Part shown: one piece after another, positions 22,711 through 62,366 of the stretch | Position numbering within the stretch: the first letter of the stretch is position 1 | Layout of the letters: each line of letters starts with the position of its first letter | Assembly: GCA_002840785.1 (NCBI GenBank) | Contig: PHCH01000005.1 | Coordinates: 1 to 64,000 of the forward strand | Direction: 5' to 3' | DNA from: Betaproteobacteria bacterium HGW-Betaproteobacteria-4 | Lineage (GTDB): Bacteria; Pseudomonadota; Gammaproteobacteria; Burkholderiales; Rhodocyclaceae | DNA: 64,000 nucleotides | The notes under the pieces: generated by a model | The model's database searches: none | Told to the model about the DNA's origin: nothing | What the model saw: the letters and a program-made list of their open reading frames with translations, nothing else | Translations under genes and position numbers: made by a program

Positions 22711-23751
22711 CTACGCCGCCGCCTTCGCCAGCTCATAAGGCTTGAACTTGATCACCTCATCCCCCAGCCACTCGTTCAGCTCCCGCATGCGGCCCTGGTA
22801 ATAGCCGATCTCATTGGCGTTGAACACCGCCGCCGCCTTCTCGGCATCGCCGAATCCGCCGGTATTGTTCGGCACGATCCCCATCAACTGGGGCGGAACA
22901 CGATGCATCGCCAGCTGGTCATCGCGGGTGATGTTCTTGATGCCCGCGAACTCATCCTTCGCCGCCACCTCGCTCACCGGAATCAGCTGCAGGCCGTCCT
23001 TCTTGCCGTTCGGCGCATACATGAACAGGTTGCGGAAATTCCCCGGCCCCTTCGAATCCCGCAGCGCCTTGCGCAGCGCCTCGACATCAGCGTCCGAATG
23101 CGCCGGATCGGTCATATATAAAATGAACCCGGCGTGCGACCCGTTCTTGTAGTACTTGCGCCGGAACAGCGTCGCCGCCTCGTTCAACCAGGCCGAATGC
23201 AGCGCCGGTATGTACTCCGGCAACCCGTAAATCTCCTGATCGATGTCCGGCTCCATCAAGTGGAACACTTTTCCCTTCTTGAACTTGTGCTCCTCGTTCC
23301 ACTTCGGAACAAAGTAGTAAGTCTCCATATCGATCCCGCGCCGCGTGAACTTCGCCTTCGCCGGCTTCATCCGCATCGGCTCGCGCAACATCGAATCCCG
23401 CCGCTCAAGATAGGCATTCCCGAACACCAGGAACTCATGGGCGAAAATGGAAAAATCCGTCCGCGACAGCAGCGGGTGCGGCTCATAGCACGACACCAGA
23501 ATATTCCGCTTCACGTACATCGCCGACGCGTGATGCACCGCCGACCGGCTCGATCGCGACAGCCCATCCATTGAAATCGGCGGCTCGTACCACTTCCCGT
23601 TATCCGGGCACTCCAGCAGGCTCAGAATGTCGCGCCGGTCCAAAACCCCCTCCGGATCGCCAAACGTAAAAGCCTCAACCCGGCCACCGCCCGCAGTCGA
23701 AGCAACCTCAGCCTTGTCCGAAAACAAAGGCGCCATCAGATCCTTGCTCAT
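22711..23751 (-). CDS. Q: Portal protein, P2 gpQ family (PBSX-type)
   Basis: The portal forms the dodecameric ring through which DNA enters the capsid. The 346-residue product, from the ATG at 23751 that overlaps the terminase stop (ATGA), has gpQ-type blocks SRSAVHHASAMYVKRN, TDFSIFAHEFLVFGNAYLE and HRVPPQLMGIVPNNTGGFGD. The ORF-track start at 23832 is rejected because it lies inside the terminase gene. Order P then Q, divergent from O-N-M, is exactly that of P2. 136 bp of DNA with no clear gene separates it from the methylase. Confidence 0.92.
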   Translation of the reverse strand: MSKDLMAPLFSDKAEVASTAGGGRVEAFTFGDPEGVLDRRDILSLLECPDNGKWYEPPISMDGLSRSSRSAVHHASAMYVKRNILVSCYEPHPLLSRTDFSIFAHEFLVFGNAYLERRDSMLREPMRMKPAKAKFTRRGIDMETYYFVPKWNEEHKFKKGKVFHLMEPDIDQEIYGLPEYIPALHSAWLNEAATLFRRKYYKNGSHAGFILYMTDPAHSDADVEALRKALRDSKGPGNFRNLFMYAPNGKKDGLQLIPVSEVAAKDEFAGIKNITRDDQLAMHRVPPQLMGIVPNNTGGFGDAEKAAAVFNANEIGYYQGRMRELNEWLGDEVIKFKPYELAKAAA

Positions 23752-25538
23752 CCGAAAATCTCCATCCGTGATTGATTGGTAGCCGATCGGCCTTCCAGCG
23801 GCTCGTTCGCCAGCGCGTGCATCGTTGCCCACGCCAGATCGGCATGGCTCGTCGCTTCCGACCGCCCTGCCTCAAAAGTCATCTGGCCGCCGCCGGCCGT
23901 CGTTGTCTTCTTGATCGCCATGAAAGCCGCCGCCATGTCCGTCCAGCCAGCGTCGAACTCCATCCGGCCCTTGCCGATCACATCCATCGCCTTCAACACC
24001 AGCCGCGTCTTCACCATCGGGCTGTACTGAAAGCCACGCACCCCCGGGTAAAAGTTCTGCACCAGCTCATAGACCAGGTCGCCGATCCCCGTCCGGTCGA
24101 TGCCGATGAACGTCACGTTGTAAGCCTCGGTCACCCGCTTGATCCGCTCCGCCTGCTCCTCATAGCGCATCCCGGAAAACTGCACCCGGTCAAGAATCCG
24201 GAACTTCCCGCCCTCGACCATCGGTGGCGCAATCACCACCAGCGCCGCATTGTCACCAGAGCGCGACGGGTCATAGCCGACCCACACCTCGCGATACCCC
24301 ATCGGCCGCGCCGCGAACGGCTTGAAGTCATCCCACAGCGTCCAGCTATCCACCATGCAGCGCTGCATCGTCGCCAGGGGGAAAACCGACTCCCCGTCGT
24401 CGATGAACATGCACATCAGCAGGTTCATGAATTCGTCCGGCGAATACTCTCGCCGCAGCTGCTCGATATCGAACAGATTGCATCCACCACCCAGCGCATC
24501 GAGCACCGTCACAATCTGGCGCCACTGGAAGTCCTCGCACAGCCGCCCATTCTTCAAGGCCGCATGCGATACATCGACCTTCACCTTATCGGCCGTCGAC
24601 CTACCCTTGTTGAACAGATCGCCCGTCCAGAACGGGTAAGCCTCATGCGACACAGCCGACGGCGTCGAAAAGTAAGTCAGGCGCCAATGCTTGTGCATCG
24701 CCATCCCGGAAGCCACCTTGCGGAACTCCTGGAATTTCTGAATCCAGAAATACTCGTCCATGTACACATTGCCGTGATACGACTGGGCCGTCCGGCTATT
24801 GGTCCCAAGGAAATACAGCGTCGCCCCGTTCGGCAACACGAAATGCTCGCCCTGCAGCTCAACGTCCGCCGTATCAGCCGCGAACTGCTTGATATACCCC
24901 TTGAACACATGCGCCTGTGCCCGCGACGCGCTCAAGAAAATCTGGTTCCTCCCCGTCTCCAGCGCATCGATAAATCCCTCACGGGCGAAATACCACGTTG
25001 CCCCGATCTGCCGGCTCTTCAACAGATTGCGCACACGATGCTTCAGCCCAGCCCGGTACCAGCACTCCTGATACGGAAACAGCGACTTCATAAACGCAGC
25101 AACCAGCTCCTCCTGCTGCGCCTCGCTGATCGCATTCCGTGCCGGCTGCTTCCTCGTCCCCGCCCGCGTCTTCGCGTTTCGGTTCTCCACCGCCGGATTC
25201 AAATCCGCCTCATTACCGCCACCCGTCGAATACTTCTTAACCCGCGCCAACCGCTCCATCTGCCGGCCAAGCAAGTCGATTTCCTTGTAGTCAGCCCCCT
25301 CCTTCGGCTCCTTCCACAGCAGTTGGATGTAGCGCGCCTCCGTGCTAGATTCAGCCCGCTCGACAGGTGAATACTCATCCCACTTGTCCCGCCGCTTCCA
25401 GCTGTGGATCGTCGTCGCCTTCTCCCCTAGGTGCTCCGAAATGCGGATCACCCGCCAGCCCTGCCAATAAAGGTCACGGGCACGGCGACGCGGATCAAGG
25501 TCCGGAGAAACAGCAGAAGGAGGAAGCGCAGCGTTCAT
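23748..25538 (-). CDS. P: Terminase large (ATPase) subunit, P2 gpP family
   Basis: This is the DNA-packaging motor. The 596-residue product begins MNAALPPSAVSPDLDPRRRARDLYW (ATG 25538); the 39-residue extension to 25655 is unlikely. A small helix-turn-helix-like N-terminus (WRVIRISEHLGEKATTIHSWKRRD) is followed by the ATPase with the Walker A-like LKSRQIGATWYFA, Walker B-like NVYMDEYFW and the nuclease domain with VGYDPSRSGDNAALVV and FIGIDRTGIGD. It is divergent from the scaffold gene across about 160 bp that hold candidate late promoters. It is translationally coupled to Q. Confidence 0.92.
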   Translation of the reverse strand: MNAALPPSAVSPDLDPRRRARDLYWQGWRVIRISEHLGEKATTIHSWKRRDKWDEYSPVERAESSTEARYIQLLWKEPKEGADYKEIDLLGRQMERLARVKKYSTGGGNEADLNPAVENRNAKTRAGTRKQPARNAISEAQQEELVAAFMKSLFPYQECWYRAGLKHRVRNLLKSRQIGATWYFAREGFIDALETGRNQIFLSASRAQAHVFKGYIKQFAADTADVELQGEHFVLPNGATLYFLGTNSRTAQSYHGNVYMDEYFWIQKFQEFRKVASGMAMHKHWRLTYFSTPSAVSHEAYPFWTGDLFNKGRSTADKVKVDVSHAALKNGRLCEDFQWRQIVTVLDALGGGCNLFDIEQLRREYSPDEFMNLLMCMFIDDGESVFPLATMQRCMVDSWTLWDDFKPFAARPMGYREVWVGYDPSRSGDNAALVVIAPPMVEGGKFRILDRVQFSGMRYEEQAERIKRVTEAYNVTFIGIDRTGIGDLVYELVQNFYPGVRGFQYSPMVKTRLVLKAMDVIGKGRMEFDAGWTDMAAAFMAIKKTTTAGGGQMTFEAGRSEATSHADLAWATMHALANEPLEGRSATNQSRMEIFG

Positions 25539-25601
25539 GGAAGCCGAGGCTACCCGCGCGCGAGAAACTCGAAGCGCAACGCCGGAAGTAAGACCAAGCC
25601 C

Positions 25602-25657
25602 TACACCCACAAGCCTTTGCCCCGCGCGAAAGGCCGCTCCAAACTGGCTCGGCATCG
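25602..25657 (+). promoter_or_regulatory. Candidate late-promoter element A (before O)
   Basis: Shared composite: TACA, then 14-17 bases, then CCGCGCG, then CGGCAYC. Here it is TACA at 25602, CCGCGCG at about 25622 and CGGCATCGT at 25650. The same pieces recur before L, V and FI. Control by the Ogr-like activator is an inference. Confidence 0.4.
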
Positions 25658-46429: not shown

Positions 46430-46862
46430 CCCAATTCCCCCGCAGGGTTTCCGAATCTCTCCGCTTGCCTCGCCACTCAGCATAGCCTGGGCCATCGAAC
46501 GGCACCAACCGCAGTCGTCCGAAGAACTCAGCCACGAGCGCGGCGCATACCGACTGCTGCGGGCGCCACAGCGCGGGATCGCGTCCGTCCAGCGTCGCCC
46601 AGTCATCCAGCGACTCGTACCAGATCAGCGCGATTGAGGCGCCATCATGGGCTGTGCTGATCTGTTTTACGACGGCATCGATAGCCGCCTGCCGCCATTC
46701 GAGCAGGCCACCTATCTTTTTTTCGACATCGGACGGCACGGCGCGATTGCCAGCCTCCCAGCGCCGCCAGGCCTGTTCGCTGGTTCCGCTGATCATTGCC
46801 GCGGCCTCGGGCTGAGAGAAGAAAAGAAGGCGGCGAGCCGCCTCCAGTTGGCAAGGAATCAT
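46407..46862 (-). CDS. Aca2/YdiL-like (DUF1870-type) HTH regulator
   Basis: The 151-residue product has the Aca2/YdiL layout. An N-terminal HTH, LEAARRLLFFSQPEAAAMIS, is followed by SEQAWRRWEAGNRAVPSDVEKKI, in which W-x-x-WExGxRxVPxDVE closely matches Aca2. A C-terminal dimerisation part follows (IALIWYESLDDWATLDG...WRPQQSVCAALVAEFFGRL). Aca proteins repress anti-CRISPR operons. Its ATG overlaps the stop of the small upstream gene (ATGA), and the operon promoter carries a perfect palindrome. YdiL relatives also occur without anti-CRISPRs, so the role is an inference. Confidence 0.7.
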   Translation of the reverse strand: MIPCQLEAARRLLFFSQPEAAAMISGTSEQAWRRWEAGNRAVPSDVEKKIGGLLEWRQAAIDAVVKQISTAHDGASIALIWYESLDDWATLDGRDPALWRPQQSVCAALVAEFFGRLRLVPFDGPGYAEWRGKRRDSETLRGNWAATVNRK

Positions 46863-47140
46863 TTTGTGAAAAACCCTTCCTGGTGGGCTCCGGCGAGAAA
46901 GTGGCGGGCTGCGGGTTCGGTCTCGCCACCCCTGTACACCGAGCCGAGATTGCCGGAAGAAAACACCGTGCCGCGCGGCGTTCCGTTGATCATGCCTTCG
47001 ATGCGGTAGCCGCCGCAGAAATAAAGGTCAGCCGGCTGGTCATAAACATCAATTGCCTCGCAGGCGTCCATCGGATGGATTTCCAGATCAACCTTGACCT
47101 GGCCATGGATGGTATTGAATAGGTGGGTTGCGAGTTTCAT
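46859..47140 (-). CDS. Small unknown protein upstream of Aca2-like gene (anti-CRISPR candidate)
   Basis: The product is 93 residues from the ATG at 47140 (AGGAG nine bases upstream); the longer ORF-track start is rejected. MKLATHLFNTIHGQVKVDLE, DVYDQPADLYFCGGYRIEGM and GTVFSSGNLGSVYRGGETEP suggest a small mixed alpha/beta protein. No family is recognised, and no known Acr is recalled as similar. It is the first gene of a two-gene operon with the Aca2-like regulator and has a strong promoter with an internal palindrome, the usual acr-aca layout. Function unproven. Confidence 0.5.
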   Translation of the reverse strand: MKLATHLFNTIHGQVKVDLEIHPMDACEAIDVYDQPADLYFCGGYRIEGMINGTPRGTVFSSGNLGSVYRGGETEPAARHFLAGAHQEGFFTK

Positions 47141-47192: not shown

Positions 47193-47221
47193 ATTATGGT
47201 TCGTTTTCGAACCGGAGTCAA
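47193..47221 (-). promoter_or_regulatory. Sigma70 promoter with palindromic operator
   Basis: On the minus strand TTGACT (-35) and CATAAT (-10) have a 17-bp spacer. The perfect palindrome GGTTCGAAAACGAACC (47198-47213) fills the spacer and touches -10. It is the expected binding site of the Aca-like repressor encoded second in the operon (inference). Confidence 0.75.
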
Positions 47222-47229
47222 CGGTTTTT

Positions 47230-48171
47230 TCAAACTCCAGAAAACAAAACATAGAACTCCGCCTCGTCGATCACCTCGGCCCCGACCTCCTCCGCCCGCT
47301 CAAGCTTCTTCGGCCCGGCGTTTTTCCCGGCCACCAGGTGCGTCAGCCCCTCTGTCACCGACTGCCGTACCAGCATGTCTGCGCTGTGCGCCATGCCCTC
47401 AAGCCGCAGCTTGTCGGCCTTTGAAAACCCGGTAAAACATACCTCGATCATCCCCACATCGGCTTCGGCGTCGATACCGTCAAAACCTTCATCCTCATCG
47501 TCATCCCGCCCGACGGAAATACTTCCAGGATCATTCAGAGGATGCCGTCGAGCCGCTGCCGCCCAGGCCTTCGGCGCCAGCAGCTCGCCTGTTTCGCGGT
47601 CAAGCACCTTGCCGCGCACCCGGCCAATGACGAAAGTCCGTGTCGCATCCGCCTTGTGGCAATGCCCCTGGAAGTATTCACGGTCGACAGCCTCCACATC
47701 GACCCGGCGATGGCTGTCGGCGCCCTGTGCGTTGCGGTAATCGAATTCGATGTCAGCGATGGGGCATCGGCGTTCTGCCTTGTCATGCCAGCGCTGCAGA
47801 TCTTCGTGCGGTTCGTCGCTTGCATCGTAGATCGCCTGCGCCGTCGGCGACAGCGCGAACCCGACAGCAATTGCCGGCACCGTATCTGTGGCCGCTGCTC
47901 CCGGCACCGGCTCCCGAAAAGCCATGATCACCCCGGCGACCAGCAGCCAGCCGGCCAGCGTCCACCCATTAACATCGCCGAGCAACATGAACGCCAGGAT
48001 CACGCCGACCGCCAGCGCCCCGAATCCGGCGATAAAGTTCCGCGCCAGCCACCCCTTTCCGGCTGCAGCCAACTGGCGCGCGGTTCGGATCCACGTCAGC
48101 ACGATGCACAACAGCACCGCCAGAACTCCGATTTCGTTCATTCCCAACCCCCGAGAAAATACAGGGGTCAT
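47230..48171 (-). CDS. Membrane protein with WYL-like and BRCT domains
   Basis: The 313-residue product (or 303 from the ATG at 48141) has three hydrophobic segments at the N-terminus (IGVLAVLLCIVLTWI, FIAGFGALAVGVILAFMLLG, WTLAGWLLVAGVIMAF). A WYL-like middle follows at about residues 130-210 (IADIEFDYRNAQGADSHRRVDVEAVDREYFQGHC, ATRTFVIGRV). A C-terminal BRCT domain lies at about 240-310 (IEVCFTGFSKADK, THLVAGKNAGPKKLERAEEVG). Both WYL and BRCT can sense nucleic acids or DNA damage. Position after the repressor, with an operator at the start, implies expression in the lysogen. Confidence 0.65.
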   Translation of the reverse strand: MTPVFSRGLGMNEIGVLAVLLCIVLTWIRTARQLAAAGKGWLARNFIAGFGALAVGVILAFMLLGDVNGWTLAGWLLVAGVIMAFREPVPGAAATDTVPAIAVGFALSPTAQAIYDASDEPHEDLQRWHDKAERRCPIADIEFDYRNAQGADSHRRVDVEAVDREYFQGHCHKADATRTFVIGRVRGKVLDRETGELLAPKAWAAAARRHPLNDPGSISVGRDDDEDEGFDGIDAEADVGMIEVCFTGFSKADKLRLEGMAHSADMLVRQSVTEGLTHLVAGKNAGPKKLERAEEVGAEVIDEAEFYVLFSGV

Positions 48172-48183
48172 AGTGTAACACTT
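48172..48183. promoter_or_regulatory. Putative repressor operator 1
   Basis: AGTGTAACACTT contains the palindrome AGTGT-A-ACACT and lies between the repressor stop and the membrane-WYL-BRCT gene. The core GTGTAACACTT recurs at 48566. Confidence 0.55.
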
Positions 48184-48186
48184 GGC

Positions 48187-48543
48187 CTATTTGGCCAGCC
48201 GTACAGCCAAACACCTGAGAATGTCGGCATCCTCCTCGCTCAGGTTCATTTTCGATATTTCCAGAGCCAGGCGGTCCCTTGGCAAGTAAGCGGCAACATC
48301 CTGGCGAACGGACAGAGGCAGGCGCTCGCCGGTGAGAATGTAGATCACGTCGGCACCATGGCCGCGAAACAATTCCAACTGATCGGCGCGAGGGGAAGTT
48401 TTGTTCTCTTCGTAGTAGCGAACAACTTTTCTGTCGACGTCGAAAATATCGCCAAGATCGGCTTGTGACAAGGAAAGGCGGACGCGCTCCTCCCTCAATC
48501 GCTGGCCGATTGATGATTTTTCTTCCCTGTTGCCTGTTGACAT
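48187..48543 (-). CDS. XRE-family phage repressor
   Basis: The 118-residue product has a lambda-type HTH (GQRLREERVRLSLSQADLGDIFDVDRKVVRYYEENKTSPRADQLELF, about residues 13-60) and a helical C-terminus without a peptidase domain, like P2 C and other short repressors. It is divergent from the early operon, with a shared control region of 55 bp that contains one copy of the GTGTAACACTT operator. The lysogeny repressor is the best reading. Confidence 0.8.
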   Translation of the reverse strand: MSTGNREEKSSIGQRLREERVRLSLSQADLGDIFDVDRKVVRYYEENKTSPRADQLELFRGHGADVIYILTGERLPLSVRQDVAAYLPRDRLALEISKMNLSEEDADILRCLAVRLAK

Positions 48544-48565
48544 GGGTATTTTTCACCCCTACGAT

Positions 48566-48576
48566 GTGTAACACTT
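48566..48576. promoter_or_regulatory. Putative repressor operator 2 in the divergent early control region
   Basis: GTGTAACACTT is the same word as at 48173-48183 and lies in the 55-bp gap between the repressor and the first rightward early gene. Confidence 0.55.
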
Positions 48577-48885: not shown

Positions 48886-49467
48886 ATGGTCATGCAGCGC
48901 GCAACGCACCCCAGCCCCCTCGCCATCGTCCGCGAGCACATTGAAGCCTGGCGCCGGGAAAACCGATGGTCCCGCGAGACCGTCACTGATCAGTTCGTCC
49001 AGTCGCATATCCGCATCGGCGGGCCGACCTTCACCGAAATCCGCTTCGAGCCGCCGACCACCGACACCTTCGAACGCATGCGCGTAAATGCCGACAAGCT
49101 GTTCCGCTGGCTCGACGACAGCACCAAGGACAAGAACCTCCTACCCTTCAATTTCATCCTGTCCATCCTCGCCGGACTGCCGGAAGAACGCCGCGTGCTG
49201 CTGCTCAACGACCTGCTGGCGCCGCTCTGCCTGCATGTCGAAGCCGGCCACGACGACGACAGCGAGGTTACCCATGCCGAACTGGTCGAAACCTTCCAGG
49301 CCTTCGTCGATCACGGCGCCGCCGCCACCATCGCCGCCAGCCGGCTGCTCGATGGCATCCATGCCGGCGAGATCGAGCACGCCGAGAAGAAGCTCGGCCT
49401 GATCGCCTCAACCGTCAAGAAAGCGCGCGGCCTGATGGCCCGCCTGCGCAAAGGGAGAAAGGCATGA
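48886..49467 (+). CDS. YdaT-like phage regulatory protein
   Basis: The product is 193 residues (GGGAGACGGG upstream of the ATG). The first 120 residues follow the YdaT_toxin pattern: VREHIEAWRRENRWSRETVTDQFVQ, then FRWLDDSTKDKNLLPFNFILSILAGLPEERR. Such proteins sit in the cII-like position in many phages, affect transcription, and inhibit growth when overproduced. The C-terminus is a coiled coil (EIEHAEKKLGLIASTVKKARGLMARLRKG). It overlaps the Ogr-like gene by four bases. Confidence 0.65.
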   Translation: MVMQRATHPSPLAIVREHIEAWRRENRWSRETVTDQFVQSHIRIGGPTFTEIRFEPPTTDTFERMRVNADKLFRWLDDSTKDKNLLPFNFILSILAGLPEERRVLLLNDLLAPLCLHVEAGHDDDSEVTHAELVETFQAFVDHGAAATIAASRLLDGIHAGEIEHAEKKLGLIASTVKKARGLMARLRKGRKA

Positions 49468-49766
49468 GCGAATTCAATCAATGGCGCGTCGTCTGCCCGC
49501 ATTGCGGCGACACCTCCACCGTCCGCAGCTCAAAGCAGATGTGCGACACCGTCCGCGAAGCCACCGTCACCTGCGACAACCCGCAATGCATGCACAGCTG
49601 GGTCGCCCAGCTCGTCGCCGTCCGCACCATCGCGCCGTCCATCAACCCCAAGCCCGGCGTCTTTATCCCCCTCTCCCAGCGCTCTCAAGCCGCGGCACAG
49701 CAGGCAGCCAGCGCTCAAATGGAGCTTGGCATGGAACACCCGCCGCCCCGCCTGGCCACCGGCTGA
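49464..49766 (+). CDS. Ogr/Delta-like zinc-finger late activator
   Basis: The 100-residue product has the Ogr/Delta zinc finger CPHCG-x(22-24)-CDNPQCMHSW, including the typical SSKQM and HSWVAQ segments. Ogr of P2 binds late promoters and RNA polymerase alpha to turn on head/tail/lysis genes. The candidate late elements before O, L, V and FI would be its targets. Its location early in the replication operon gives delayed-early expression. Confidence 0.88.
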   Translation: MSEFNQWRVVCPHCGDTSTVRSSKQMCDTVREATVTCDNPQCMHSWVAQLVAVRTIAPSINPKPGVFIPLSQRSQAAAQQAASAQMELGMEHPPPRLATG

Positions 49767-57077: not shown

Positions 57078-57661
57078 GCGACCTCTTCTATCTGCAGGAC
57101 AGCCGCGGCTTGACTGGCGAAAATATGATGTTTTGGGCTTTCGGCGGTGGATACACCTCTGATATTCGCCAGGCGGAAGTTTTCTCTAAAGAGGCCGCCG
57201 TTCGTCAGCACCAAAGCCGAGAGTCCGACATTCCTTGGCCTGCTGAGTACATCAAAGGCCGCTTTTACACGCCCGTTGATATGCAGCACTTACGGCACGC
57301 CGATGGCAACAGCAGGGATGTGGCTTTTTACGAACAAGTTCCAGGTCGCTGGATCGGCAACGACTGTCTGTGGGTTTATGGCAGCACGGAAACAACTGAT
57401 CTACGGCTGGCCAGCGTGTTCGCCAGTCTGCAGCCGGGGTGCGTGATGTGGCCTGTTGAAGAAATTCAGAAGCTGGCGAGGCCGGCAGTGCGGGCTAGTG
57501 ACGTTTCGATAAAGGAAGCGCTGGATGGATCTGGAATCGTTATCAACAAACCCAAGCGCACCAAACGCGAAGTGTTCAACTGCCACCAGTGCGGACGCTT
57601 CATAAGCGAGGACCAGCGTTTCTTTGACTGCCCGAACTGCGGCGCGGAGAACCGGCCATGA
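57074..57661 (+). CDS. Hypothetical protein with C-terminal zinc ribbon, 195 aa
   Basis: Starts at the ATG overlapping the methyltransferase stop. The body (DLFYLQDSRGLTGENMMFWAFGGGYTSDIRQAEVFSKEAA...) resembles small phage proteins that pair with DNA-modification genes. The tail CHQCGRFISEDQRFFDCPNCGAEN is a zinc ribbon. GC is clearly lower than in its neighbours, so it is likely a recent acquisition. Function unknown. Confidence 0.6.
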   Translation: MSDLFYLQDSRGLTGENMMFWAFGGGYTSDIRQAEVFSKEAAVRQHQSRESDIPWPAEYIKGRFYTPVDMQHLRHADGNSRDVAFYEQVPGRWIGNDCLWVYGSTETTDLRLASVFASLQPGCVMWPVEEIQKLARPAVRASDVSIKEALDGSGIVINKPKRTKREVFNCHQCGRFISEDQRFFDCPNCGAENRP

Positions 57662-58041
57662 TCGCCCTATCCATCCGCCAGCCCTGGGCCTGGCTCATCC
57701 TAAACGCCGGCAAGGACATCGAAAACCGCGACTGGAAAACCCCCTACCGCGGCCCCTGCCTGATCCACGCCTCGAAGTCGGCCACCAAGCAGGACTACCA
57801 GGACGCCATCGACTTCATTAACTGCCGCCTTGACCACCCGATTATCGAAGTCCCGCCCATCGACCAGTTCGACCGCGGCGGCATCGTCGGCATGGTCGAC
57901 ATCGTCGGCTGCACCGACACCTCCGACTCCCCCTGGTTCGTCGGCGACTACGGCTTCGTCCTGCGCAACCCGAAACCCTTGCCCTTCACCCCCTACAAAG
58001 GCCGCCTCGGCTTCTTCAACGTCCCGGAGATCAAACCATGA
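57658..58041 (+). CDS. ASCH-domain protein
   Basis: The 127-residue product is a PUA-like ASCH domain. IALSIRQPWAWLILNAGKDIENRDWKTPYRGPCLIHAS is the typical signature (SIRQPWA...KDIENR.W.T.YRG...IHAS). ASCH proteins bind RNA or modified nucleosides, and some hydrolyse N4-acetylcytidine. Phages use them in unknown ways. It is coupled to neighbours by ATGA overlaps. Confidence 0.85.
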   Translation: MIALSIRQPWAWLILNAGKDIENRDWKTPYRGPCLIHASKSATKQDYQDAIDFINCRLDHPIIEVPPIDQFDRGGIVGMVDIVGCTDTSDSPWFVGDYGFVLRNPKPLPFTPYKGRLGFFNVPEIKP

Positions 58042-59786: not shown

Positions 59787-60812
59787 ATGCCTGCCGTTAT
59801 TGAAAAAAACGCGACACACGAAACCGCCAAACGCGACATCGTTCCGGTGGCTCAACAGCCCCGCCTGCTCGACCAGGTTCGGGCCCGCATCTGCGTCCTG
59901 CACTACAGCCGGTCGACCGAGAAAACCTACATCCACTGGATTCTCGACTTCATCCGCTTTAGTGACCGGCGCCACCCGAAAGATATGGGCGCGCAGGAAG
60001 TTGAAGCCTACCTGTCGCACCTGGCTACCGACCGCGATGTCGCTGGCGGAACGCAGAACCAGGCCATGCATGCCATCCTGTTTCTCTACAAGCAGGTGCT
60101 CGGCATTGACCTACCCTGGCTGGACGGCGTCACACGAGCCAAGGAAAGCAAGCGCATTCCGACCGTCCTGACGCAGTCTGAGACACGGGCGCTACTCGAT
60201 CAGACCAGCGGACTGCCCGGACTAGTCATCCGCCTACTCTACGGTACCGGCATGCGCCTGATGGAAGGCCTGCGCCTGCGAGTCAAGGACATCGATTTTC
60301 ACGGCCGTGCTATCACCGTCCGTGCGGGCAAAGGAGACAAGGATCGCATCGTCCCGCTGCCGGAATGCCTGATCGAACCGCTTAAGGCCAGGCTCGACGA
60401 GCGGCGAAAGATGCATGACGTCGATCTCGCCAAAGGCATGGCCGACGTCGAACTGCCGCACGCTCTTGAACGGAAATACCGCAACGCCGGCAAGGAGTTC
60501 GGCTGGCAATACATCTTCGCCGCTGCCGACTACTCGACCGACCCGCGCACCGGCGTCATCCGCCGCCACCACCTGCACGAAAAGACTATCCAGCGCCACG
60601 TCAAGGAAGCCGCCCGGCGCGCCGGCATCCTGAAACCGACACACCCGCACACCCTACGCCACAGCTTCGCCACCCACCTGCTCGAATCCGGTGCCGACAT
60701 CCGCACCGTGCAGGAACTGCTGGGCCACGCCGACGTCTCGACAACGATGATCTACACCCATGTTCTCAACCGCGGCGGCCGCGGCGTCATCAGCCCGCTG
60801 GATAGGATCTGA
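59787..60812 (+). CDS. Integron integrase, IntI family
   Basis: This is a 341-residue tyrosine recombinase of the IntI type. The N-terminus [30 protein letters not shown] is characteristic. The catalytic set is complete: [13 protein letters not shown] (Arg), AGKGDKDR (Lys), [13 protein letters not shown] (His/Arg), [16 protein letters not shown] (His and Tyr nucleophile). The IntI-specific insertion ([23 protein letters not shown]...[21 protein letters not shown]) is present. It is co-oriented with, and downstream of, the cassettes, the reverse of the usual integron plan. Confidence 0.92.
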
Positions 60813-61125: not shown

Positions 61126-61504
61126 TTTCCTGACAACCGCCGAGATTGCGGACCTGACGGATCGCCAGTTGCCGAGCAAGCAGATTGCCTGGCTGGCCGA
61201 AAACCGCTGGAAGTTCGCCGTCTCGGCCGCCGGCAGACCGAAGGTGGCGCGGTCATTCTATGATTTCATGCTCGGGACAGCGACGAAAGAACCCGACGAA
61301 CAACAAGAACCTGATTTCTCTGGCTGGGTGAACAAGCATGGTGGGGCGACGGAAAAGCAATCTGGAACTCGGCATGAGCCGGCTCTACGTCTACGAGGGA
61401 AAACGGACGACGACCTATTACACAATCGACCGCCACAACAAATACATCAACCTCGGCAAGGACCTTCGCTCAGCCAAAAAACAGCTGCTCGAGCTGGAAG
61501 GTGA
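61118..61504 (+). CDS. DUF4224 protein (probable recombination directionality partner)
   Basis: From the ATG at 61118. FLTTAEIADLTDRQLPSKQIAWLAENRWKFAVSAAGRPKVARSFYD is the DUF4224 domain, which almost always sits just upstream of phage integrases and may act in excision. The ORF then runs 167 bp into the integrase gene in another frame (proline/glutamine-rich nonsense-like tail). The true C-terminus may therefore be shorter, or a frameshift is present. Confidence 0.75.
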   Translation: MSSFLTTAEIADLTDRQLPSKQIAWLAENRWKFAVSAAGRPKVARSFYDFMLGTATKEPDEQQEPDFSGWVNKHGGATEKQSGTRHEPALRLRGKTDDDLLHNRPPQQIHQPRQGPSLSQKTAARAGR

Positions 61505-62366
61505 AGCGCCAGAACCCGGTACCATCGCCGACTACCTGGACGACCTGATCAAGGCGCGCTGGAAGCTGGTCGCGAAAAAGAAACTGGCCACTCGCACCGT
61601 CGAAACGAACGAATCGGAGGCAGAGAAGCTAAAAGACTTCTTCGGCAATATGAAGCCGGAGGCCGTCAAGCCATCCCACGTCTGGCTCTACCTGCACAAA
61701 TACCGCGGAGCCGAAAGCCCTGTCCGCGCCAACCGCGAAATTGCCCTTTTATCGACCCTGTTCAACGGCCTGCTCGGCGCCGGTATCGTCGACAGAAACC
61801 CGTGCGTCGGCGTCGAGCGAAACACCGAGACCCCGCGCGACAGACTGGTCAGCGATATAGAGTTCAAATCATTCCTGAAATACTGCTGGCGCCACGGCGA
61901 CGCCGGCCGCCGCATCGCCCTGGCCGGCTACATCGCCTACATCACCGGCAAGGCCCAGGGCCAAATCCTGAGACTCAACCGGGGCCAGCTAACCAAGGAC
62001 GGAATCGCGTTCGCCAAACGCAAGCGCGGCGCCGAAACGCTAGTCCTCTGGACCCCGCTACTGCGCAAGCTGATCAAGGCCTCGATAGACATGCCATGCA
62101 CCATCGATCCGCTCTACGTCATTCACAGCCAGGCCGGCACACCCTACACGACATCGGGATTCAAGGCCCTGTGGCATCGCCGCATGGGCGAATGGTGCGC
62201 CCTCGGCCACGAACGCTTCACCTTCCACGACCTTCGCGCCAAAGCCGTCACCGACATGACCGAGCAGGGCCGAAAAGCCAGCGACCTAACCGGCCACCGC
62301 CAGGAATCAACCATCGCCAGCGTCTACGACCGCCGCCGAGTCCGAAAATCCCACGCCGTGAAGTAA
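61338..62366 (+). CDS. int: Prophage tyrosine integrase
   Basis: This 342-residue site-specific recombinase lies next to attR. It has an N-terminal arm-binding region, a SAM-like core-binding domain (TIADYLDDLIKARWKLVAKKKLATRT) and a catalytic domain with FTFHDLRAKAV (H..R), LTGHRQESTIASVYDRRR (His and Tyr). At the first catalytic Arg site, YITGKAQGQILRL, the residue is Ala (codon GCC, 61953-61955). The family normally has TGxRxG. This could reduce activity or be a sequence error. Confidence 0.9.
   Translation: MVGRRKSNLELGMSRLYVYEGKRTTTYYTIDRHNKYINLGKDLRSAKKQLLELEGEAPEPGTIADYLDDLIKARWKLVAKKKLATRTVETNESEAEKLKDFFGNMKPEAVKPSHVWLYLHKYRGAESPVRANREIALLSTLFNGLLGAGIVDRNPCVGVERNTETPRDRLVSDIEFKSFLKYCWRHGDAGRRIALAGYIAYITGKAQGQILRLNRGQLTKDGIAFAKRKRGAETLVLWTPLLRKLIKASIDMPCTIDPLYVIHSQAGTPYTTSGFKALWHRRMGEWCALGHERFTFHDLRAKAVTDMTEQGRKASDLTGHRQESTIASVYDRRRVRKSHAVK

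Follow-up and report, generated by a model that had tools for sequence, protein, structure and literature searches.

The window, a stretch of 64,000 nucleotides (positions 1 to 64,000 of contig PHCH01000005.1 of Betaproteobacteria bacterium HGW-Betaproteobacteria-4), carries a P2-like prophage with tail, terminase, Ogr-like and integrase genes, and the tail gene reaching up to 46320 resembles P2 gpD when read by eye. Directly behind the prophage repressor, which lies upstream at a distance of 15 nt on the same (minus) strand, is a gene for a protein that combines three membrane helices, a WYL domain and a C-terminal BRCT domain (TM-WYL-BRCT; Table 1). The start codon in the open reading frame list is the ATG at 48171, and translation could instead begin at a second in-frame ATG (48141) without loss of any domain; IMG/VR contig IMGVR_UViG_3300029891_000082 holds an identical copy. 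Both the position behind the repressor and the three-part architecture had been proposed in a first-pass annotation of the sequence and are borne out, the former by distance and orientation and the latter by Pfam (BRCT), PHROG 2561, AlphaFold2 and comparison with PDB structures. A Pfam scan of the repressor found an HTH domain alone and no peptidase domain. The right-hand part of the prophage region ends with a second tyrosine integrase gene (61338-62363, +) close to the one in Table 1, and an ASCH-domain protein is encoded in the early region (57658-58038, +).

Table 1. Features of the TM-WYL-BRCT locus and of the surrounding prophage (window coordinates)
Feature	Position	Strand	Evidence or remark
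Terminase ATPase	23751-25655		
Aca2-like HTH regulator, 151 aa	46407-46862	-	PF08965, E 1.6e-17
Orphan ORF, 93 aa, candidate anti-CRISPR, neighbour in the same slot	46859-47140	-	AGGAG ribosome-binding site
Promoter TTGACT-17-CATAAT	47193-47221	-	Inverted repeat GGTTCGAAAACGAACC (47198-47213) in spacer
TM-WYL-BRCT protein gene	47230-48171	-	ORF, 313 aa; Pfam, PHROG and PDB matches
BRCT domain, residues 243-312	47236-47445	-	Pfam, family alignment, model, PDB matches
Acidic disordered linker, residues 217-241	47449-47523	-	pLDDT about 49, charges
WYL Sm-like barrel, residues 139-191	47599-47757	-	Pfam, PHROG, alignment, model, Foldseek
Three membrane helices, residues 11-36, 40-63 and 70-84	47920-48141	-	Hydropathy, model, charges
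Palindrome AGTGTAACACT	48172-48182		Abuts start codon of TM-WYL-BRCT gene
HTH repressor, 118 aa	48187-48543	-	HTH_3 above cut-off
Near-copy of palindrome, TGTGTAACACT	48565-48575		Beside rightward promoter-like site 48537-48565 (+)
Ogr-like zinc finger	49464-49766		
Tyrosine integrase	59787-60809	+	

Because the first loop between the helices (residues 29-45) is positively charged, with four K/R and no D/E residues (charge +4), the positive-inside rule predicts an N-out/C-in topology, which would place the WYL and BRCT domains in the cytoplasm. The AlphaFold2 model, for which 37 sequences were aligned, has the WYL barrel and the BRCT fold at a pLDDT of about 97 each, and its low pTM (0.36) means that it provides no domain arrangement. 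No effector domain is visible in the protein.

Profile searches and structure prediction, the check first proposed for the two domains, support both BRCT and WYL, though the WYL domain alone is below the Pfam cut-off (PF13280, 17.5 bits versus 21.8), as is that of a relative on viral contig L085 (20.6 bits). The profile phrog_2561 spans WYL and BRCT in a single match (residues 142-310, profile positions 6-160 of 167, E 2e-27). In Foldseek searches of the PDB, the barrel resembles those of PafBC, BrxR, CapW and DriD, and PafBC was also matched among PDB chains by the family sequence profile (E 8e-4). Where the WYL consensus of the family has RTFRxDRI, the window protein has RTFVIGRV (R181V and D183G, with R178 and R184 retained). 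In the family alignment, 46 of 49 relatives have an R or K residue at position 181, and 44 of 49 have a D or E residue at position 183. The WYL domains of PafBC bind ssDNA, and R211 and R214 of PafB are required for this binding (PMC11804915). Judged by motif spacing, R181 and R184 may correspond to these two arginines. Since R181 and D183 are lost, the WYL domain of the window protein may be weakened or retuned.

The BRCT domain is recognized above threshold by PF00533 (29.8 bits versus a cut-off of 21.3, residues 243-307). The corresponding part of the model resembles RFC1 (including nicked-DNA complexes), LigA and XRCC1 in Foldseek searches of the PDB, and LigA and RFC1, as well as PafBC, were recovered independently by the family sequence profile. 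F246, T247, G248, L279, G286, P287 and K289 are invariant in all 50 aligned BRCT domains, and residue 254 is K or R in 50 of 50 relatives. The BRCT pocket of XRCC1 is formed by R335 and K369, and RFC1 uses the same pocket for DNA-end binding (PMC6334254); the spacing from residue 254 to residue 289 is 35 in the WYL-BRCT family versus 34 for the XRCC1 pair. Furthermore, the BRCT domain of RFC1 on its own binds DNA at about 10 nM, with a preference for 5'-phosphate ends (PMC9293009). Because the pocket residues are conserved and correspond to those of XRCC1 and RFC1, the BRCT domains of the family are likely to bind phosphate. This phosphate is plausibly that of a DNA 5' end, and a phosphopeptide may be the ligand instead. 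The nucleic-acid-sensing role put forward in the first-pass annotation is well supported by the domain families and the invariant BRCT pocket.

A DNA ligase identity, given by the PHROG and NCBIfam labels, was rejected: the ligase model matches the BRCT end only (21 bits versus a cut-off of 444), and comparison with ligase profiles revealed no catalytic ligase domains in the protein. The 'DNA ligase' label of phrog_2561 (NC_049342.1 gp44 and NC_008201.1 ORF34) is misleading, as only the BRCT domain is common to ligase. The same profile was rejected for counting the family per genome, since it matches host LigA (339 of 369 genomes matched).

About 50 divergent WYL-BRCT relatives were found, mainly phage or prophage genes. 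Loci numbered 28 from GTDB genomes and at least 80 from IMG/VR (80 of 131 matches), and pooling these with other searches gave at least 121 loci in at least 53 groups at 80% identity. BRCT was already among the WYL fusion partners of Makarova et al. 2014 (PMC4012209). The domain combination had initially been described as rare; WYL-BRCT is common in phages, but the description holds for the membrane-anchored form, present in six retrieved loci: the window, Pasteurella atlantica (L051), two Billgrantia species (L057 and L069) and two viral contigs (L080 and L085). These homologues have the same three-part architecture as the window protein, differ from it in sequence (25-31% identity) and in having two to four predicted helices, and in L051, L057 and L069 also have a repressor directly upstream. 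The window protein is a membrane-anchored, degenerate-WYL version of a domain combination that was known before but is unstudied, and a literature search found no study of WYL-BRCT or of BRCT in exclusion.

In the family tree, the window, L079, L051, L085 and L080 form a supported clade (97/93) that does not include the Billgrantia pair; L079, the nearest relative, is cut off at a contig edge, which leaves any anchor out of view. The idea that the membrane form arose only once was rejected, as the tree requires at least two changes. Homology of the membrane segments was also rejected: compared pair by pair, those of the window protein, the Billgrantia proteins and a protein encoded near the L085 gene show only weak similarity, and the segments had no match in phages. 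Membrane helices are absent from most relatives, and the role of the family therefore does not depend on membrane location. A second membrane protein, encoded near the TM-WYL-BRCT gene of L085 (L085:3491-4057), joins a similar membrane segment at its N terminus to an OB-fold-like domain (PF12869), which suggests that the anchor is reusable for nucleic-acid-binding domains. Two-helix membrane proteins occur in the same slot (L051:6543-7133 and L085:6124-6633), with a SLATT-type look by eye and no Pfam match. In addition, an extra C-terminal domain with a motif around 'AAGW.FAVP' is found in or beside WYL-BRCT proteins (L065:4731-5975, L074:4758-5882 and L077:4749-5879; L054:5505-6098); it had no Pfam match where scanned and may represent a second component, located outside the slot behind the repressor.

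The first-pass annotation had also noted a copy of a repressor-type operator at the start of the gene and had read it as a sign of expression in the lysogen. The sequence GTGTNACAC occurs exactly twice in the 64-kb window, flanking the repressor, against a mean of 0.37 occurrences anywhere in the window after shuffling. The upstream copy fits a putative early-promoter operator, and a promoter scan found no promoter-like site beside the palindrome at the start of the TM-WYL-BRCT gene. Across 24 related loci, no palindrome is common to both repressor flanks, and a shared operator was rejected as a general feature. The palindrome pair is therefore real but unique to this phage, with its counterpart absent from the related loci, and it offers no proof of expression; the copy at the gene start could indeed reduce expression.

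The place of the gene is more informative. For 38 non-redundant family members, the upstream neighbours matched HTH_3 (17), Phage_CI_repr (15), Peptidase_S24 (9) and Phage_CI_C (8), and about 25 of them are repressors when the sequences are read by eye. As a P2-like phage has some 45 genes, this adjacency is far above chance. Several repressor types stand upstream, which indicates that the WYL-BRCT gene tracks a position rather than one repressor, and some contigs carry the gene without an upstream repressor. The record of Vibrio phage K139 annotates cI-orf2-glo-int as a lysogenic operon, start site included, in which orf2 encodes a BRCT domain. Co-orientation and conserved order behind the repressor, together with this operon, make expression of the TM-WYL-BRCT gene in the lysogen likely.

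Coupling of the gene to the repressor across phages is also what would be expected of the main rival explanation, a DNA-damage sensor tuning lysogeny, in which BRCT and WYL would read breaks and ssDNA and the protein would pass the signal on to the repressor, either to promote induction or to keep it from happening by accident. Such a sensor would be useful where the repressor has no self-cleaving peptidase domain, as may apply to the window, whose repressor shows an HTH only, and ssDNA sensing in damage responses is known from the WYL proteins PafBC and DriD (PMC11804915). However, the gene also stands behind S24-peptidase repressors (9 of 38), which would need no such helper, it follows no single repressor family, and a membrane anchor is odd and of no obvious use in this role, so that a damage sensor is considered rather unlikely.

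An integrase lies downstream of the WYL-BRCT gene in seven of 37 loci. This frequent adjacency and a BRCT domain of the LigA/RFC1 type would suit a helper for the phage's own DNA ends, acting in protection, circularization or integration and perhaps recruiting host ligase. This explanation is nevertheless unlikely in view of the absent catalytic ligase domain, the lysogenic rather than lytic orientation, the membrane anchor and the family's mere 20 records in the phage collection, which speak against a general need of such phages. Of 5,426 Escherichia coli genomes, 172 carry WYL-BRCT, which in this species lies away from the repressor, at a prophage edge with ssrA on one side and ogr on the other. 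Such patchy presence at a prophage edge would fit a lysogenic-conversion cargo gene that acts on host physiology and has no part in phage competition; with two conserved domains of nucleic-acid-binding type, however, DNA or RNA is a likelier target than metabolism, and a cargo gene is very unlikely.

Other occupants of the slot point, weakly, to defence. Neighbours matching defence models were AbiTii, a type II REase, PDC-S20, PDC-M53A and KAP/QatA/PifA, in one locus each. The cI-int interval of K139-like phages is an antiviral hotspot (Rousset et al. 2022, PMC9122126), and glo of K139 is a phage-exclusion gene (PMC8537503). Vibrio phage PV94 lacks glo (PMC3986222) and has WYL-BRCT in the slot that orf2 takes in K139. 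Judged by this company, superinfection exclusion or defence appears to be the most likely role.

Directly downstream of the TM-WYL-BRCT gene, and in the same orientation, are the 93-aa ORF, for which a homologue search found none, and the Aca2-like gene. The Aca2-like protein has 35% identity over 112 aa to gp30 of ZF40, which belongs to an acrIF8-aca2 locus (PMC8434428), and ZF40 has the inverted repeat TGTTCGCGATTGCGAACA between -35 and -10, where the window has GGTTCGAAAACGAACC. The layout is that of an acr-aca2 operon, with a small ORF upstream of an Aca2 homologue and an inverted repeat inside the core promoter; a known acr is found upstream of just 3% of Aca2-like genes (PMC9410906). A host locus (G000:C18, L161:7682-14369) encodes a type II-C-like CRISPR-Cas system with cas9, cas1, cas2 and 30 repeats of 37 nt; Cas9 (1,138 aa) and Cas2 were read by eye, and Cas1 was identified by Pfam. 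None of the 29 host spacers matches the window or prophage, the best agreement (21 of 30) being at shuffle level, and self-targeting was rejected as an argument for an anti-CRISPR. The 93-aa ORF is a good candidate for an anti-CRISPR acting in a host with a type II-C-like CRISPR-Cas9.

The explanation preferred for the TM-WYL-BRCT protein, held tentatively as plausible though still short of probable, is a lysogen-expressed, membrane-held nucleic-acid sensor acting in the exclusion of other phages. Starting from the observed domains, fold, gene order and pocket conservation and extrapolating to topology, lysogenic expression, ligand and exclusion outcome, the protein would be expressed with the repressor, from one operon, in the lysogen and anchored in the inner membrane by its three helices, with WYL and BRCT in the cytoplasm. 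The BRCT domain would bind DNA ends or nicks with a 5' phosphate via its conserved pocket, and the WYL domain would bind ssDNA or another nucleotide ligand. Incoming or replicating foreign phage DNA would then be detected near the membrane and either be blocked or trigger an exclusion response. Points against this explanation are that no effector domain is visible, that the window protein has lost two conserved WYL residues, that most relatives have no anchor and that some family genes lie away from repressors. In a narrower form, which is improbable, the protein would be a membrane-tethered exclusion sensor stationed where phage DNA is injected and recognizing the free 5'-phosphorylated ends of this DNA (and ssDNA), its BRCT pocket separating a linear invader from closed host or prophage DNA; if true, this protein would found a defence family of repressor-linked WYL-BRCT proteins.

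Of these results, the most interesting is that the gene keeps its place behind the repressor. Because many prophages that are unrelated to one another, and that use different types of repressor, have the family immediately after that gene, a shared lysogen function is likely for proteins on which no study was found and which are labelled 'DNA ligase'. One small protein joins a domain type of damage sensing (PafBC and DriD) and immune control (CapW and BrxR) with a BRCT domain of the end-binding type, and WYL-BRCT also makes it possible to test how prophages perceive foreign or damaged DNA.

Among known systems, PafBC, DriD, CapW and BrxR have the WYL barrel in common with the window protein but are HTH transcription factors without anchor or BRCT, whereas the window protein has no HTH. 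The BRCT domains of RFC1 and LigA are the closest solved sequences and folds to that of the window but sit in a clamp loader and a ligase enzyme, respectively, unlike here. Among phage proteins, the PHROG 2561 members Mannheimia phage PHL101 ORF34, Vibrio phage PV94 gp04 and Escherichia phage 500465-1 gp44 share the WYL and BRCT core, and the PHL101 and PV94 genes lie directly behind the repressor, as in the window; these members lack a membrane helix, whereas the window protein adds three, together with a degenerate WYL motif. K139 Orf2 also has a C-terminal BRCT domain and lies directly behind cI but differs in its N-terminal part, in which no WYL and no membrane anchor were found. Conversely, gp02 of Yersinia phage vB_YenM_201.16 has three membrane helices and a WYL domain, and lies between repressor and integrase, like the window protein, but lacks the BRCT domain.
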